A DNA stretch of 64,000 nt, taken from positions 1 to 64,000 of the forward strand of contig NZ_VRKO01000003.1 of the NCBI RefSeq assembly GCF_012271765.1, given 5' to 3'. The notes under the pieces were generated by a model. That model was not told the DNA's origin. It was given only the letters and a program-made list of their open reading frames with translations, and ran no database searches. Source of the DNA: Erwinia rhapontici. Its GTDB lineage: Bacteria; Pseudomonadota; Gammaproteobacteria; Enterobacterales; Enterobacteriaceae. Positions 6,432 through 59,587 of this stretch are shown here, piece by piece. The translations under genes and the position numbers were made by a program. How positions within the stretch are numbered: position 1 is the first letter of the stretch; every line of letters begins with the position of its first letter.

Positions 6432-7592
6432 ATGAATCCCGAAAATCCTTTGCTGGCTCTGCGCGGTAAGATCAGCGCACTGGACGAACAACTGCTGGCC
6501 CTGCTGGCCCAGCGCCGTGCGCTGGCGGTAGAAGTTGCTGAGGCCAAAATGGCCACCCACCGTCCCGTCCGTGATATCGACCGCGAACGCGATCTGCTTG
6601 AGCACCTGATCACTCTGGGCAAAGGCCATAAGCTGGATGCGCATTACATCACACGCCTGTTTCAGCAAATCATTGAAGATTCCGTGCTGACTCAGCAGGC
6701 GCTGCTGCAAAAACATCTGAACAACACCAACGCTCACTCTGCGCGCATCGCCTTTCTCGGGCCAAAAGGCTCTTACTCGCATCTGGCATCACGCCACTAT
6801 GCCGCACGTCATTTCGATAACTTCATTGAGAATGGCTGCCTGAAGTTTCACGATATCTTCAATCAGGTTGAAACCGGGCTGGCTGACTACGCCGTGCTGC
6901 CGGTTGAGAATACGACTTCAGGGTCAATCACTGATGTCTATGACCTGTTGCAGCAAACCAGCCTGTCTATTGTCGGTGAGATCACTATCCCTATTGATCA
7001 CTGCGTCCTCGTCTCCGGTAATACTGACCTGCAGCAGATTGAGACAGTCTACAGTCACCCTCAGCCATTCCAGCAGTGCAGCCAGTTCATCAATCGTCAT
7101 CCGCACTGGAAAATTGAGTACACCGAAAGTACTGCGGCTGCGATGGAGAGAGTCGCTGCCATGAATTCACCGAAAGTTGCCGCGCTGGGCAGTGAAGCCG
7201 GCGGTGAGCTTTATGGTTTACAGGTGCTGGAGCGGAATCTGGCTAACCAGCGCCAGAACATTACCCGCTTCATCGTACTGGCCCGTAAGCCGGTCGAGGT
7301 TTCACTCCAGGTTCCGGCAAAAACCACGCTGATTATGGCCACTGGCCAGCAGGCAGGCGCCCTGGTGGAAGCTCTGCTGGTGCTGCGAAAACATAATCTG
7401 ACAATGAGTAAACTGGAGTCGCGCCCGATTAACGGGAATCCATGGCAGGAGATGTTTTACATCGATTTCCAGGGCAACCTGAATACCGATGCTGTACAGC
7501 AGGCGCTAAGCGAGCTGACGCCAATCACACGTTCCCTGAAGGTACTGGGCTGCTACCCTAGCGAAAACGTCGTCGCCATCGATCCCCAATAA
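6432..7592 (+). CDS. pheA: Bifunctional chorismate mutase/prephenate dehydratase PheA
   Basis: 386-residue P-protein: chorismate to prephenate (chorismate mutase, about 1-95), prephenate to phenylpyruvate (dehydratase, about 100-285) and a C-terminal ACT domain (about 295-386) that binds phenylalanine for feedback inhibition. The mutase helix carries the conserved [13 protein letters not shown]; the ACT region carries [11 protein letters not shown] and ESRP. Expression is set by the PheL attenuator directly upstream. In E. coli pheA converges directly on tyrA; here two extra genes lie between them. Confidence 0.98.
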
Positions 7593-7654: not shown

Positions 7655-7699
7655 TTTACCCTGTGATGTCGATCGCTATATCATAAGATATACAACGAT
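7655..7699 (+). promoter_or_regulatory. Promoter overlapped by a ModE-like operator
   Basis: A TTTACC -35 (7655-7660), 16 bp spacer and TATATC -10 (7677-7682) are overlapped by the dyad ATCGCTATAT-N8-ATACAACGAT (7672-7699). Both half-sites fit ATCGYTRTAT, and the 24-bp spacing between the outer CG pairs fits my memory of the molybdate-responsive ModE operator (CGNTATATA-N6-TATATANCG). A dyad covering the -10 implies repression. It lies 12 bp before the next gene. The motif is visible; ModE binding is an inference. Confidence 0.55.
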
Positions 7700-7711
7700 A
7701 CTCAGGCAGCG

Positions 7712-8770
7712 ATGATGACTTCCCTTTTCCGCTCTTTTTCCGTACTTATTCTTTCTGCTTTATTCGTTTTTTCTGCGCAAGCATCACGCCAGGTAACCGA
7801 TCAGCTCGGTCGTCAGGTGACATTGCCCGATCGCGTTGATCGGGTCGTCGTCCTTCAGCATCAGACCTTAAATCTACTGGTACAGCTCGATGCCACGGGA
7901 AAAATAGTCGGCATTCTCAGCAACTGGAAACAGCAGCTGGGCGACGGCTATGCACGTCTGGTACCCCAGTTGAATACGTTGCCGATGCTGGGCGATCTGA
8001 CCCATGTTGATCTGGAGAAGCTGGTTGCCCTTCATCCGCAGGTGGTGTTTGTCACGAACTATGCGCCCCAGGAAATGATTGATCAGATTCAGGATCTCGG
8101 CATCGCTGTTATTGCCATCTCTCTGCATACCGACAGCGGCACACAGCAGGCCCAGCTCAACCCACAGTTAGAAAATGAAGAACAGGCCTACAATGATGGC
8201 CTTGCACAGGGTATCCGTCTGATTGGCGAGGTGGTCAATCAGCAAAAGCAGGCCGACGCTCTGGTTGCAGAAACCTTTAAACAGCGTCAGCAGGTTGCCG
8301 ACCGGCTCAAGGACATTCCGGAAAAAGAGCGTATTCGTGTCTACATGGCTAACCCCGATCTGACAACCTATGGTTCGGGGAAATACACCGGGCTGATGAT
8401 GGCGCATGCCGGAGCAATGAACGTTGCCGCATCAACCGTTAAGGGCTACAAGCAGGTTTCAATGGAGCAAATTCTGGCATGGAATCCGCAGGTCATCTTT
8501 GTCCAGGACCGTTATCCAAAAGTACTCGACGAGATTAACCAGCAGCCCGCCTGGCAGGCCGTGGATGCCGTCAAAAATCACCGGGTTTATCTGATGCCAG
8601 AGTATGCCAAGGCCTGGGGCTACCCGATGCCGGAAGCGATGGCACTGGGAGAATTGTGGATGGCGAAGAAACTGTACCCGGCCAGATTTACGGATATTGA
8701 TATGCAGCAGCAGGCAGACAGCTGGTATCAACGTTTTTACCGTACTCACTACCACGGCAACAACGGATGA
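7712..8770 (+). CDS. Periplasmic ABC substrate-binding protein, TroA/FecB fold, MolA-like candidate
   Basis: 352 residues with a Sec signal peptide (about 1-24, cleavage after FSAQA), then a FecB/TroA-type binding domain (PF01497-like): DQLGRQVTLPDRVDRVVVL at the start, and the pattern LVALHPQVVFVTNY and ILAWNPQVIFV that marks the two lobes. Such proteins deliver iron-siderophores, vitamin B12 or, in the MolA branch (Haemophilus HI1472), molybdate and tungstate. A ModE-like operator upstream and a ModA-like partner overlapping by 4 bp (ATGA) favour an oxyanion such as molybdate. No permease or ATPase gene lies nearby, so it would have to work with a transporter encoded elsewhere. The first of two adjacent ATG codons was used. 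Substrate is an inference. Confidence 0.75.
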   Translation: MMTSLFRSFSVLILSALFVFSAQASRQVTDQLGRQVTLPDRVDRVVVLQHQTLNLLVQLDATGKIVGILSNWKQQLGDGYARLVPQLNTLPMLGDLTHVDLEKLVALHPQVVFVTNYAPQEMIDQIQDLGIAVIAISLHTDSGTQQAQLNPQLENEEQAYNDGLAQGIRLIGEVVNQQKQADALVAETFKQRQQVADRLKDIPEKERIRVYMANPDLTTYGSGKYTGLMMAHAGAMNVAASTVKGYKQVSMEQILAWNPQVIFVQDRYPKVLDEINQQPAWQAVDAVKNHRVYLMPEYAKAWGYPMPEAMALGELWMAKKLYPARFTDIDMQQQADSWYQRFYRTHYHGNNG

Positions 8771-9528
8771 AGCCTTTACAGGTATTGGCCGCGGGCAGCC
8801 TGCGTCACGTCTGGCCAGGCGTGGTAAGTGCATTCCAGCACTATTATCCGGCGGGGATAGAAACGCAGTTCGGTCCAGCCGGAATACTGCGTCAGCGTAT
8901 AGAGCAAGGTGAGGCCTGCGATTTGTTCGTCTCTGCCAGTATTGCCCATCCGCAGACACTGTTACAGGCAGGGCTGGCACAAAGGACAGGCGTATTCTGC
9001 CATAACTTTTTGTGCCTGAACGTTCGCAGCGATAGCGTCGATTCGGCGGCTGAGTGGCTCGATCTGTTGCGCAATCCTGCTCTGCGTCTCGCCACCTCAA
9101 CACCTGGCTGCGATCCCTGTGGCGATTACGCCTGGCAGCTATTCGAACGTATTGGACAGCATGAGACTGAACTGGGCCAACGGTTAAAGCAGCGTGCGAT
9201 GCCACTGGTCGGTGGAAAGGATTCCGTACCCGTACCTCCGGGGATGCAGGCTTCAGTCTGGTTGATAAAGTCAGGGCAGGCCGATCTCTTTATTGGCTAC
9301 CGCAGCTATGCGCATCTTCTACAGGCGAATGAGGGTATTACGACGTTGTTGATACCTGAGGCGTGGCAAACTCGCGCTGACTATGGCTATGCTGTTTGTC
9401 AGCCCGCAGGCCACAAGCTCGCTGAGCTGTTGTTAACTTGTGAGGGACAGGAGATTTTCGTCAAGGCGGGGTTTGGTACGATTAAAACGGAGGGGCCAGA
9501 TATGTCGGCCCCTCCTGCTAAACACTAG
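8767..9528 (+). CDS. ModA-like substrate-binding domain protein without signal peptide
   Basis: 253 residues. The start [16 protein letters not shown] and [23 protein letters not shown] follow the ModA pattern (AAGSL, GxSGxLxxQIxxGxPxDvFxSA), the molybdate/tungstate-binding periplasmic family. There is no hydrophobic leader: the conserved first strand begins at residue 5, so the product is predicted cytoplasmic, unlike classic ModA. It overlaps the upstream binding-protein gene by 4 bp and is surely co-transcribed. The last residues (about [13 protein letters not shown]) are encoded by the tyrA terminator hairpin, and the TAG stop shares a CTAG palindrome with the convergent tyrA stop. It could be a molybdate buffer or sensor, or a subunit with an unknown ligand; function not known. 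Confidence 0.75.
9480..9515 (-). terminator. aroF-tyrA operon terminator inside the ModA-like gene
   Basis: Perfect 9-bp stem GGAGGGGCC/GGCCCCTCC (9489-9497 with 9507-9515), 9-nt loop, then GTTTTAAT on the minus strand. It begins 9 bp past the tyrA stop and lies within the coding end of the convergent gene. Confidence 0.75.
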
Positions 9529-10646
9529 GGTCTGCTGTCATTTGCCTGACGCAGTAACGTGCGGCTTTCTGCCTGGAAGCGTTTCGCGTGGTCGCCAAAC
9601 CAATGCTCTACCCGGCGGAAGCTGTCGATAAACGCCTGCTTATCGCCCTGCTCCAGCAACTTTATTGCCTCTCCAAACCGCTTATAATACCGTTTGATCA
9701 GGGCCAGATTGCTTTCTGAAGACATAATAATGTCGGCGTAGAGCTGTGGATCCTGAGCAAACAGGCGTCCGACCATCGCCAGCTCCAGTCGATAGATCGG
9801 TGATGAAAGCGCCAGCAGTTGGTCCAGTTGAACATTTTCTTCTGCCAGGTGCAGACCATAAGCAAACGTAGCGAAGTGGCGCAATGCCTGAATAAACGCC
9901 ATGTTCTGGTCATGCTCCACGGCACTGATACGGTGCAGGCGTGCGCCCCATACCTGAATCTGTTCCAGGAACCACTGATAGGCTTCCGGCTGACGACCAT
10001 CACACCACACCACCACCTGCTTCGCCAGGCTGCCGCTATCCGGGCCGAACATGGGGTGTAACCCCAGCACCGGTCCTGCATGCGCGGCCAGCATGGCCTG
10101 CAACGGTTTATTTTTCACCGAGGCCAGATCCACCAGGATGCAATCCTGCGGCAGCGGAGGCAGCTCACCAATAACCTGCTCGGTCAGATGGATAGGAACA
10201 CTAATAATCACCATGCCCGCGTTGGCCAGCATCGCTTCTGCGTTATCCCAGTCACCTTTATCGAGGATCTGTACCTGATAACCCGACAGGGTAAGCATCT
10301 TCTCAAACAGACGCCCCATCTGCCCCTTACCGCCAACAATCACTACCGGACGCAGTTCGGGACAGAGGGTTTTAAAGCCCTTATCGTTTTCGCTGGTGTA
10401 GGATTCACGCATCACGCGGCGCAGAACATCCTCGATCAGATCGGGAGGCACGCCCAGCAACTCCGCTTCATGACGGCGTGAGGCCAGCATCGTGGCCTCA
10501 CGCTCAGGAACATAAATCGGTAACCCGTAGCGGCTTTTTACCTCGCCGACTTCGGCGACCAGCGTCAGCCGTTTCGCCAGCAGATCCAATAGCGCTTTAT
10601 CGACTTCATCAATTTGATCGCGTAACGCGGTCAGTTCAGCCACCAT
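9525..10646 (-). CDS. tyrA: Bifunctional chorismate mutase/prephenate dehydrogenase TyrA
   Basis: 373-residue T-protein. The chorismate mutase helix domain (about 1-90) feeds the NAD-dependent prephenate dehydrogenase domain (about 98-373), which makes 4-hydroxyphenylpyruvate for tyrosine. The dinucleotide motif reads [11 protein letters not shown] (101-111), and [10 protein letters not shown] is the conserved prephenate site segment. Length equals the E. coli enzyme. It lies 15 bp downstream of aroF in the same direction and forms the tyr operon, presumably controlled by TyrR boxes upstream of aroF. Its stop codon overlaps the stop of the convergent ModA-like gene. Confidence 0.98.
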
Positions 10647-55829: not shown

Positions 55830-58800
55830 TGGCCTGCCTCCTGCTGACTACCCTGGCAATCATCGTTGCCTTCACCATCTAACCAGTTAATCTGATTCAT
55901 TTTTCTCACAATCACGAACTCGTCCCGGTTGGAACCGACGGTGCCGTAATAGTTAAAGCTGTAAGCCAGTTGCGCATAGCCACCAATCATATGAGTCGGT
56001 TTAGGGCACACGCGCGTGACGGAGTTATGGATACCACCGCGCTGGCTGGTGATCTCCGACCCGGGAATATTCACGATGCGTTCCTGAGCGTGATACATCA
56101 TGGTCATGCCCGCCGGGACGCGCTGGCTGACAACCGCACGGGCGGTCAGTGCACCGTTGGCGTTAAACGCCTCGATCCAGTCGTTATCGACGATCCCCAG
56201 CGCCTGCGCATCCTCCTCACTCATCCAGACAATCGGCCCGCCGCGAGACAGCGTCAGCATCAACAGGTTGTCGCTGTACGTGGAGTGAATGCCCCATTTC
56301 TGGTGCGGCGTCAGGAAGTTCAGCGCTCTTTCCGGGTTACCGTTCGGCTTTTTGTTCAGCAGCGGCTGCACCGTGCGGGTATCAATCGGCGGACGATAGA
56401 CCAGCAGGCTTTCACCAAAGTCACGCATCCACTGATGATCCTGATACAGCTGCTGGCGGCCACTTAGGGTACGCCACGGGATCAGTTCATGGACGTTGGT
56501 ATAGCCAGCGTTATAAGAGACGTGTTCATCTTCCAGGCCTGACCAGGTCGGGCTGGAGATAATTTTGCGCGGCTGCGCCTGAATATCGCGGAAGCGGATC
56601 TTTTCATCTTCTTTATTCAGCGCCAGATGGGTGTGATCGCGTCCGGTAAACTCGCCCAGTGCCTGCCAGGCTTTTACCGCAACCTGACCATTGGTTTCCG
56701 GTGCCAGCGACAGGATGACCTCGGCAGCATCAATCGCGCTGTTGATGTTCGGACGGCCGGCTGCCGGACCTTCTGCCTTGACGTAGTTGAGTTTTTTCAG
56801 GAAATCGACTTCCGTCTGGGTATTCCAACTGATGCCTTTACCGCCATTGCCCAGCGTATCCAACAGCGGGCCCAGCGAGGTAAAGCGTTCCCAGGTCGCC
56901 GGATAGTCGCGCTCGACGGTGACAATATGGGGTGCGGTTTTCCCAGGGATCAGATCGCACTCGCCCCGGTGCCAGTCCTGTACCCCCAACGGCTGCGCCA
57001 GTTCCGCAGCCGAGTCATGCTGAATCGGTTGGAGCACCACATCGGTTTCTTTACCCAGATGACCGATGCAAAGTTCAGAGAAAGTTTTGGCAATGCCTTT
57101 GTAGATCTCCCAGTCACTGCGGGATTCCCAGGCCGGATCGACCGCCGCCGACAGGGGATGAATAAACGGATGCATATCCGAAGTATTCATATCGTCTTTT
57201 TCATACCAGGTGGCGGTTGGCAGAACAATATCGGAATAGAGGCAGGTGCTGGACATACGGAAATCGAGGGTCACCACCAGATCGAGTTTACCTGTGCCCG
57301 GATTATCCTGCCACTCAACCTCCTGCGGTTTGACGGCCCCCTGCGCACCCAGGTCGCTCCCCTGAATACCATTTTCCGTCCCCAGCAGATATTTCAGCAG
57401 GTACTCATGCCCCTTACCGGATGACCCCAGCAGGTTGGATCGCCAGACAAACAGGTTACGCGGGAAGTTCTGCTCATTATCTGGCTGTTCAGCGGCAAAG
57501 CGCAGGCTGCCCTCTTTCAAACCGTCGACGGTGAAATCCAGCGGTGTTTTACCTGCAGCCTGTGCCTGCGCAGCAAGGCGCAGCGGATTGGTATTTAATT
57601 GCGGGGCGGAAGGCAGCCAGCCCATGCGTTCGGAACGCACGTTAAAGTCAATCAGGCTGCCGCCGTAGCGCGATTTATCGGCCAGCGGTGACAGCAACTC
57701 ATCAGTGCGCAATGTTTCATAGCGCCACTGGCTGGAGTGGTTGTAGAAGAATGAGGTGCCGTTCATCTGGCGCGGTGGACGCTGCCAGTCAAGGCCGAAG
57801 GCCAGCGGCAACCAGCCCGTTTGCGGACGGAGCTTCTCCTGACCAACATAGTGCGCCCAACCGCCGCCGCTCTGCCCCACGCAGCCACAGAACACCAGCA
57901 TATTGATCAAACCCCGGTAGTTCATGTCCATGTGATACCAGTGGTTCAGGCCGGCACCAACGATAATCATCGAACGTCCACGGGTTTTTTCGGCGGTTTC
58001 TGCAAATTCACGCGCTATACGCACAATATTCTGGCGGGATACGCCAGTGATCTGTTCTGCCCAGGCCGGGGAATATGCTTTCACTTCGTCATAGCTGGCG
58101 GCACAGTTAGCATCATCCAGCCCGCGATCTACGCCGTAGTTTGCCAGCGTCAGATCATACACGCTGGTGACAAGGGCACTCGATCCATCGGCCAGTTGCA
58201 GCCGTTTTACCGGCAGCCTGTGCAGCAGAATTTCATCCAACTGCACGCGGTTGAAATTCGGGTTATCTATTGCACCAAAGTAAGGGAAGCCGACATCGAC
58301 CAGCTCGTCATACTGGCCCAGCAGGCTCAGTTGCAGCTCCACTTCCTGCTGGTTTTTACCTTCACGCTGCTCAAGGTTCCATTTGCCTTTCTCACCCCAG
58401 CGGAAACCAATTGACCCCTGCGGGGCCACCAGTTCACCGTTTTTCTGGTTAATGGCGATGGTTTTCCACTGCGGGTTATTCTCCTGCCCCAACCCGTCCA
58501 CCAGATCGCTGGCGCGCAGCATACGTCCGGCTGCGTAAAAGCCGCCTTCGCGCTCCTCCAGCAGCACCAGCATCGGCATATCGCTGTACTGGCGCACATA
58601 GTTGCGAAAATACTCCACCTCACGCTGCTGGTGGAACTCGGTCAGGATCACATGACCGAACGCCAGCGCCAGCGCGCTGTCAGTACCCTGCTTCGGGCTC
58701 AACCAGTGATCGCACAGCTTGGCAATTTCGGCGTAGTCCGGGGTGATCGCAACGGTTTTGGTGCCTTTATAGCGGACTTCGGTAAAGAAGTGTGCATCCG

Positions 58801-59587
58801 GGGTTCGCGTCTGCGGCACGTTACTGCCCCAGGCAAGAATATACGCAGAGTTATACCAGTCAGCCGACTCGGGAACATCGGTCTGCTCACCCCACGTCAT
58901 GGGTGATGCTGGTGGCAGGTCGCAGTACCAGTCATAAAAGCTCAGACAGATGCCGCCAATCAGTGAGAGATAGCGTGAACCGGCCGCATAGGACACCATC
59001 GACATCGCCGGAATAGGCGAGAACCCGATAATACGGTCAGGCCCGAACGCTTTAGCCGTATAGATATTGGCGGCGGCAATCAGTTCATTCACTTCTTGCC
59101 AGTCGGCACGAACAAAACCGCCGCGCCCACGAGCCTCTTTATAGCTTTTTGCCTGCTCCGTATTTTCCACAATCGACTGCCAGGCGAGGACCGGGTCACT
59201 GTGCTGCGCTTTTGCCGCGCGCCAAAGACTGACCAGGCGTTTGCGCACCAGCGGGTATTTCAGGCGGTTGGCGCTGTACAGATACCAGGAGTAACTGGCA
59301 CCACGCGGACAACCGCGCGGCTCGTGGTTAGGCAGGTCGGGTCGGGTACGCGGGTAGTCCGTTTGCTGGGTTTCCCAGGTCACCAGACCATTTTTGACAT
59401 AGATCTTCCAGCTGCACGAACCGGTGCAGTTCACACCGTGAGTAGAGCGGACGATTTTGTCATGCTGCCAGCGGCTGCGGTAACCATCCTCCCAGTCACG
59501 GTTGGTGTTCAGTGTTTGCCCGTGCTGGCCGGAGAACGGCTCACCCAACTGTTTAAAATAACGTAACCGATCAAGAAACTTGCTCAT
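55826..59587 (-). CDS. narG: Nitrate reductase alpha subunit NarG
   Basis: 1253 residues (E. coli 1247). Catalytic subunit with molybdenum bis-MGD, reducing nitrate to nitrite at the cytoplasmic face. FS0 cluster ligands His50, Cys54, Cys58 and Cys93, and the Mo ligand Asp223 in YDWYCDLPPASP, correspond to E. coli His49, Cys53, Cys57, Cys92 and Asp222. No Tat signal is needed. It starts only 37 bp after narK with no visible promoter between, so it is probably transcribed from the narK promoter. Confidence 0.98.
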   Translation of the reverse strand: MSKFLDRLRYFKQLGEPFSGQHGQTLNTNRDWEDGYRSRWQHDKIVRSTHGVNCTGSCSWKIYVKNGLVTWETQQTDYPRTRPDLPNHEPRGCPRGASYSWYLYSANRLKYPLVRKRLVSLWRAAKAQHSDPVLAWQSIVENTEQAKSYKEARGRGGFVRADWQEVNELIAAANIYTAKAFGPDRIIGFSPIPAMSMVSYAAGSRYLSLIGGICLSFYDWYCDLPPASPMTWGEQTDVPESADWYNSAYILAWGSNVPQTRTPDAHFFTEVRYKGTKTVAITPDYAEIAKLCDHWLSPKQGTDSALALAFGHVILTEFHQQREVEYFRNYVRQYSDMPMLVLLEEREGGFYAAGRMLRASDLVDGLGQENNPQWKTIAINQKNGELVAPQGSIGFRWGEKGKWNLEQREGKNQQEVELQLSLLGQYDELVDVGFPYFGAIDNPNFNRVQLDEILLHRLPVKRLQLADGSSALVTSVYDLTLANYGVDRGLDDANCAASYDEVKAYSPAWAEQITGVSRQNIVRIAREFAETAEKTRGRSMIIVGAGLNHWYHMDMNYRGLINMLVFCGCVGQSGGGWAHYVGQEKLRPQTGWLPLAFGLDWQRPPRQMNGTSFFYNHSSQWRYETLRTDELLSPLADKSRYGGSLIDFNVRSERMGWLPSAPQLNTNPLRLAAQAQAAGKTPLDFTVDGLKEGSLRFAAEQPDNEQNFPRNLFVWRSNLLGSSGKGHEYLLKYLLGTENGIQGSDLGAQGAVKPQEVEWQDNPGTGKLDLVVTLDFRMSSTCLYSDIVLPTATWYEKDDMNTSDMHPFIHPLSAAVDPAWESRSDWEIYKGIAKTFSELCIGHLGKETDVVLQPIQHDSAAELAQPLGVQDWHRGECDLIPGKTAPHIVTVERDYPATWERFTSLGPLLDTLGNGGKGISWNTQTEVDFLKKLNYVKAEGPAAGRPNINSAIDAAEVILSLAPETNGQVAVKAWQALGEFTGRDHTHLALNKEDEKIRFRDIQAQPRKIISSPTWSGLEDEHVSYNAGYTNVHELIPWRTLSGRQQLYQDHQWMRDFGESLLVYRPPIDTRTVQPLLNKKPNGNPERALNFLTPHQKWGIHSTYSDNLLMLTLSRGGPIVWMSEEDAQALGIVDNDWIEAFNANGALTARAVVSQRVPAGMTMMYHAQERIVNIPGSEITSQRGGIHNSVTRVCPKPTHMIGGYAQLAYSFNYYGTVGSNRDEFVIVRKMNQINWLDGEGNDDCQGSQQEAGQ

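Follow-up and report, generated by a model that had tools for sequence, protein, structure and literature searches.

What might two genes for putative oxyanion-binding proteins do between pheA and tyrA, when no transporter gene accompanies them? The question is raised by a stretch of 64,000 nucleotides from Erwinia rhapontici (contig NZ_VRKO01000003.1, positions 1 to 64,000; hereafter the window), in which two open reading frames (ORFs) with an ATGA overlap were found where an initial annotation had placed them (Table 1). The first encodes a protein of the MolA type and the second a ModA-like protein, for which the label ModL (gene modL) was coined in this analysis. We lean, with moderate confidence, to the view that molA-modL supplies the soluble components of a split, ModE-repressed molybdate/tungstate uptake system, whose channel is encoded elsewhere and in which ModL would serve as a cytosolic acceptor.

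The MolA assignment, already made in the initial annotation, was upheld: a domain search matched the first protein to Peripla_BP_2 (5.1e-33), its best sequence match in the PDB was Haemophilus HI_1472/MolA (3psa, 2.6e-133, residues 26-348), with similarity over the full length, and the profile match reached 1.7e-180. Its descent as an ortholog of Haemophilus MolA is well supported. The N-terminus, inspected by eye, is hydrophobic and signal-like, and its final AQA-S stands immediately ahead of the point where the crystallised Haemophilus chain begins. Two glutamates, E102 and E252, one per lobe, are present in all 88 MolA rows of the clade formed by such pairs (hereafter the pair clade) and are aligned with the two residues of BtuF which we take to be its docking glutamates; they are regarded here as candidate docking residues of a type II importer binding protein. 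Position 124 (window 8081-8083) is acidic in 99% of the pair-clade rows and in none of the 12 full rows, i.e., those from MolBC-bearing loci, a difference that could reflect adjustment to a changed partner. Pairwise ratios of nonsynonymous to synonymous divergence (dN/dS) lay at about 0.05-0.12 in molA and 0.10-0.22 in modL (few pairs, with high dS in most), and both genes are under purifying selection. Binding of molybdate and tungstate by Haemophilus MolA is reported in PMC4031551, and these oxyanions would be the ligands of both MolA and ModL.

The second protein, initially described as ModA-like, keeps that description, with one correction as to its probable location. ModL matches SBP_bac_11 (8.2e-40), has the ModA/WtpA fold, and matches the NCBI PRK03537 molybdate-binding models with scores below their cut-offs. 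It differs from the ModA of the ModE-controlled ModABC system in that no signal peptide is visible by eye, and it is 25% identical to the ModA of its own genome over 129 residues. Its start lies three residues ahead of the first strand, and no conserved N-terminal extension was seen by eye among the ModL loci displayed, with one ambiguous case (L093). Since a signal peptide is not apparent, ModL is probably cytosolic rather than a second periplasmic protein, and could act there as an acceptor or buffer.

The claim that the operon lacks transporter genes was borne out, and for MolB the lack extends beyond the operon. With a MolB query taken from a full operon, the pair genomes searched yielded no MolB ortholog: the best match did not exceed 46% in 36 genomes of the genus or 43% in 24 further pair genomes, and a MolB elsewhere in the genome of the window was rejected, the best match being 41%. 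Among 20 MolA genomes without the pair, by contrast, 18 had MolB matches of 53-100%, the two others (G403 and G419) reaching 42%. MolC, searched for near the loci, was missing from those of the pair. The molA-modL pair is apparently a reduced mol operon.

A 28-bp dyad covering the −10 element, likened in the initial annotation to a ModE operator, withstood closer scrutiny. It was scored over 21 bases against ATCGNTATATA-N6-TATATAACGAT, the ModE consensus given in PMC2700814 with one position freed (a near-identical consensus is printed in PMC545781), and matched it at 19 of 21 bases. Allowing up to three mismatches on both strands, the dyad was the sole site within the window, against none in 100 shuffles, and one of two in the 5.24-Mb genome, the reversed control pattern giving none; the other site, of the same kind, lies between modE and modA and is followed by a modA-modB-modC-like set. 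The genome holds a ModE gene (PRK10676, 441 bits; cut-off 369). Among 97 distinct molA upstream regions, 95 carry a site scoring at least 15/21, compared with 7 of 970 shuffles, the two below this value being L184 and L187. The promoter-like pair is weak (9/12 matches; shuffle mean 0.1), and the position of its −10 (7679-7684) inside the dyad suits repression. The ModE reading of the locus is well supported by sequence, with the dyad as a predicted ModE-type operator to which ModE would bind. A 10-fold repression of Haemophilus molB by molybdate has been ascribed to an unknown factor (Rice et al., PMC4031551), for which ModE is a natural candidate.

The arrangement was one that the initial annotation did not recognise from E. 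coli; the two-gene unit without transporter is real, but it is not peculiar to the pheA-tyrA insertion of the window, and a pair confined to that insertion was rejected in favor of a conserved unit of the Enterobacterales. In 100 loci of this order (the best 80 of 273 matches plus 20 hand-chosen stretches from a draw of 394 genomes), 81 carried molA-modL without transporter genes, 12 carried molB and molC, 11 of these with modL, and seven carried molA alone; in L115 the modL frame is interrupted, and its 160-residue piece was retained in the ModL counts. The pair was found at many genomic places in six families, with neighbors varying by lineage, e.g., metA in Pantoea, hybG and a disulfide-bond oxidoreductase in Salmonella diarizonae, and htpG and purT in Proteus. 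After removal of three repeat loci, the 86 pair-clade MolA rows, E. coli included, formed one clade with a Shimodaira-Hasegawa-like approximate likelihood ratio (SH-aLRT) of 99; without E. coli the tree held 85 such rows, with several long branches. A single clade of the 12 full rows was rejected by the approximately unbiased test (p-AU 0.0003), which places the pair clade within MolBC-bearing lineages, and the simplest account would be one loss of molBC, the pair then being kept and moved as a unit.

Within the genus of the window's genome, molA (at least 72% identity) occurs in 22 of 36 genomes, flanked by pheA and tyrA in all 22; full modL accompanies it in 19, G025 keeps a 59-residue piece, and modL without molA was seen in none of the 36. 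Fragments of molA lie between pheA and tyrA in three molA-less genomes of the genus (G020, G005, and G015; loci L200, L201, and L202), in which no NarG-sized match stood among the matches listed. In a class-wide draw of 369 genomes, MolA was detected at E 1e-60 solely in the window's own genome. Relatives of MolA (E 1e-100) occur in 78 of 72,556 plasmid records, 55 of the 78 being Pantoea, and relatives are present on plasmids recorded for Rhizobium, Paracoccus, Shinella, and Pseudomonas. According to annotation, a Klebsiella plasmid and a Rhizobium Ti plasmid (mol-type clusters L205 and L206), as well as a Pasteurella record, bring MolA together with a permease, an ATPase, and a gene for a ModA-like or substrate-binding protein.

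Although no transporter is encoded in the operon, MolA may still have one, and the earlier picture of a pair standing alone holds for the operon and not necessarily for the cell, as a permease/ATPase that is not MolB tracks the pair. In E. coli, molA-modL lies divergently beside a permease (FecCD by Pfam) and an ATPase, with a ModE-like site (19/21) 17 bp before molA; the E. coli permease was rejected as MolB (37%). Of 5,426 E. coli genomes, 45 carry all four genes; a search with permease/ATPase alone returned 45 genomes and a more sensitive molA search 46. In the 394-genome draw, a permease of at least 63% was present in 11/11 pair-clade genomes (counts that include G017, with molA and no modL), in 2/20 other MolA genomes, and in 4/363 MolA-less ones, i.e., in 6/383 others (Fisher 1.6e-17, uncorrected for kinship). 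Five MolA-less genomes of one family (f25) with relatives at 50-55% had been left out of the 4/363; counted in, they bring the MolA-less figure to 9/363 and that of all others to 11/383 (p 9e-16). Within the GTDB family the comparison was 11/11 against 6/23 (p 8.7e-5), and in genus g34 three genomes hold both molA and permease and three hold neither. Each of the 24 pair genomes from further genera likewise has the permease, which in one of them is cut by the end of a contig; nine of the 24 belong to the draw as well. In the window's genome it lies with its ATPase at G000:C6:272499-274372, on a separate contig from the pair, and neither binding protein nor receptor was found at that locus.

Upstream regions add to this association. 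Among 64 distinct permeases, the three closest to that of E. coli, from Citrobacter R56, Salmonella diarizonae, and Pseudenterobacter, are all unlinked to the pair and are preceded by ModE-like sites of 19, 18, and 17 of 21, respectively, at about 26-71 bp (approximate distances, counted from where the query alignment begins). The highest score among 640 shuffles was 15, and 60 of the 64 permeases scored 14 or less; the upstream region runs off the contig in G013 and is cut by contig ends in G795 and G804. In Proteus, a ModE-like site (16/21) lying 203 bp ahead of the permease was discounted as too weak and too far. The putative partner resembles the CirA-linked permease/ATPase sets in being FecCD by Pfam, but differs in being often without its own binding protein and, in a few species, near ModE-like sites.

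Several observations weigh against a permease devoted to MolA. All members of the genus but one have it (35 of 36; G001, which is 91% complete, gave no match), including 13 of the 14 that lack molA, so that exclusivity to MolA was rejected; an adjacent CirA-type receptor was found at 18 of these 35 permease loci and an adjacent binding protein at three, and a binding-protein relative lies near the permease in 8 of the 24 other pair genomes. The idea that a missing binding protein beside the permease tracks molA was also rejected, none being found there in the 13 molA-less permease-bearing genomes of the genus either. At L219:2105-7307, the FecCD permease/ATPase has its own binding protein and CirA receptor, one or both of which are missing in many genomes of the genus. 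We nonetheless infer that this permease is the membrane partner of MolA.

The split system would work as follows. When molybdate is scarce, ModE would leave the operator and both proteins would be made; MolA would be exported to the periplasm, bind there either the oxyanion or a chelate of molybdate, and dock via its two lobe glutamates on the FecCD-type permease/ATPase, which would have replaced the lost MolBC and may also serve siderophore-binding proteins. In the cytosol, to our knowledge not a place where such binding proteins are expected to work, ModL would bind the incoming oxyanion as an acceptor or buffer for cofactor synthesis. A wider proposal is more tentative, and we hold it possible at best: an enterobacterial clade would run a second molybdate/tungstate importer from two orphans, a MolA without channel and a siderophore-type channel/ATPase often without binding protein. 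A switch of partner would have united the two, the channel would have been recruited to the ModE regulon in the E. coli-Citrobacter-Salmonella branch, and ModL would be the cytosolic acceptor.

Among the alternatives, the one that survives best, unlikely though it appears, is a transporter-less buffer or sensor in which MolA holds periplasmic and ModL cytosolic molybdate, the permease association being a phylogenetic coincidence. The operon without transporter, the modA-modB-modC-like set at the other ModE site, and the retention of the permease in molA-less genomes of the genus all agree with it, whereas the invariant candidate docking glutamates and a permease that adjoins the pair in E. coli and lies near ModE-like sites elsewhere do not; moreover, MolA should not feed ModBC, because its importer type is not that of ModB. 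That the pair handles a chelate, e.g., molybdate-catecholate, entering via CirA and a CirA-linked FecCD importer with MolA as binding protein, seems improbable: the FecCD permease, its frequent CirA-type neighbor in the genus, and the Peripla_BP_2 fold, common among chelate-binding proteins, would suit it, against which stand the oxyanions reported for Haemophilus MolA in PMC4031551 and the permease locus of the window's genome, where no CirA-type receptor is found. A functionless, decaying relic of the mol operon, as the molA fragments at pheA-tyrA and the three of 22 molA-bearing genomes without full modL might suggest, is very hard to reconcile with purifying selection on both genes, a conserved operator, and retention in six families. 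Least credible is a signal-independent exit of ModL as a second outside catcher, for which the ModA of Pseudomonas aeruginosa, reported to leave by type VI secretion (PMC9769707), offers a precedent and against which no export signal was seen by eye.

The presence of NarG in the window, also put forward initially, agrees with a NarG-sized molybdopterin match at 57086-59266, named by match length and frame size rather than by a NarG model. Among the matches listed, those to the molybdopterin oxidoreductase family averaged 5.6 in the 22 molA-bearing genomes of the genus and 2.6 in the 14 molA-less ones (p 2e-4), and a NarG-sized match occurred in 19/22 versus 5/14 (p 0.003), both uncorrected for kinship. 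The suggested link to nitrate respiration thus stands as a correlation, which fits a role in molybdenum supply for respiration but does not establish it.

Table 1. Features of the molA-modL locus and its flanks, in window positions.
Feature	Position	Strand	Description
molA (ORF 1)	7712-8770	+	352 amino acids; Peripla_BP_2 binding protein, HI_1472 ortholog
modL (ORF 2)	8767-9528	+	253 amino acids; ModA-like SBP_bac_11; ATGA overlap with molA
pheA (flank)	6432-7592	+	ORF and domain match
tyrA (flank)	9525-10646	-	Convergent; 4-bp overlap with modL 3' end; presumed name, from position
ModE-type operator (predicted)	7672-7699	strand-neutral	28-bp dyad; its end is 12 bp ahead of the start codon of molA
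Sigma-70-like promoter	7655-7684	+	TTTACC-18-TATCAT; weak; −10 within operator
Terminator-like hairpin	9489-9515	- (tyrA strand)	Within modL 3' end; one found against a shuffle mean of 0.3

The closest known counterpart is the mol system of Haemophilus influenzae, where MolA, MolB, MolC, and a ModA-like gene stand together (HI1469-HI1472, with MolABC as HI1470-HI1472; PMC3928620). The MolA orthology, the ModA-like gene, likened to ModL by the description of HI1469 and not by its sequence, and the molybdate repression reported in PMC4031551 are common to both; the deletion described in that paper took in HI1469, whose own effect was thus not separated there. The pair differs in standing alone, MolB and MolC being missing from the operon and MolB from the genome, and in its visible ModE-type operator, where PMC4031551 invokes an unknown factor. 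The arrangement is, as it appears, a reduced form of a known transporter operon and holds two surprises: a seemingly cytosolic ModA-like protein and a probable change of membrane partner. Among the open-licence papers searched, we recognised none that describes the pair without transporter, its ModE operator, or the association with the permease.

These results name a likely new target of ModE, offer ModE as the factor left unnamed in PMC4031551, and raise the question of the part played by a ModA-like protein in the cytosol. They also provide a concrete test case of an ATP-binding cassette (ABC) binding protein that may have been re-homed to a different permease in evolution, in a split set common to many enterobacteria, and the occurrence of both states within E. 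coli makes such a test practical.
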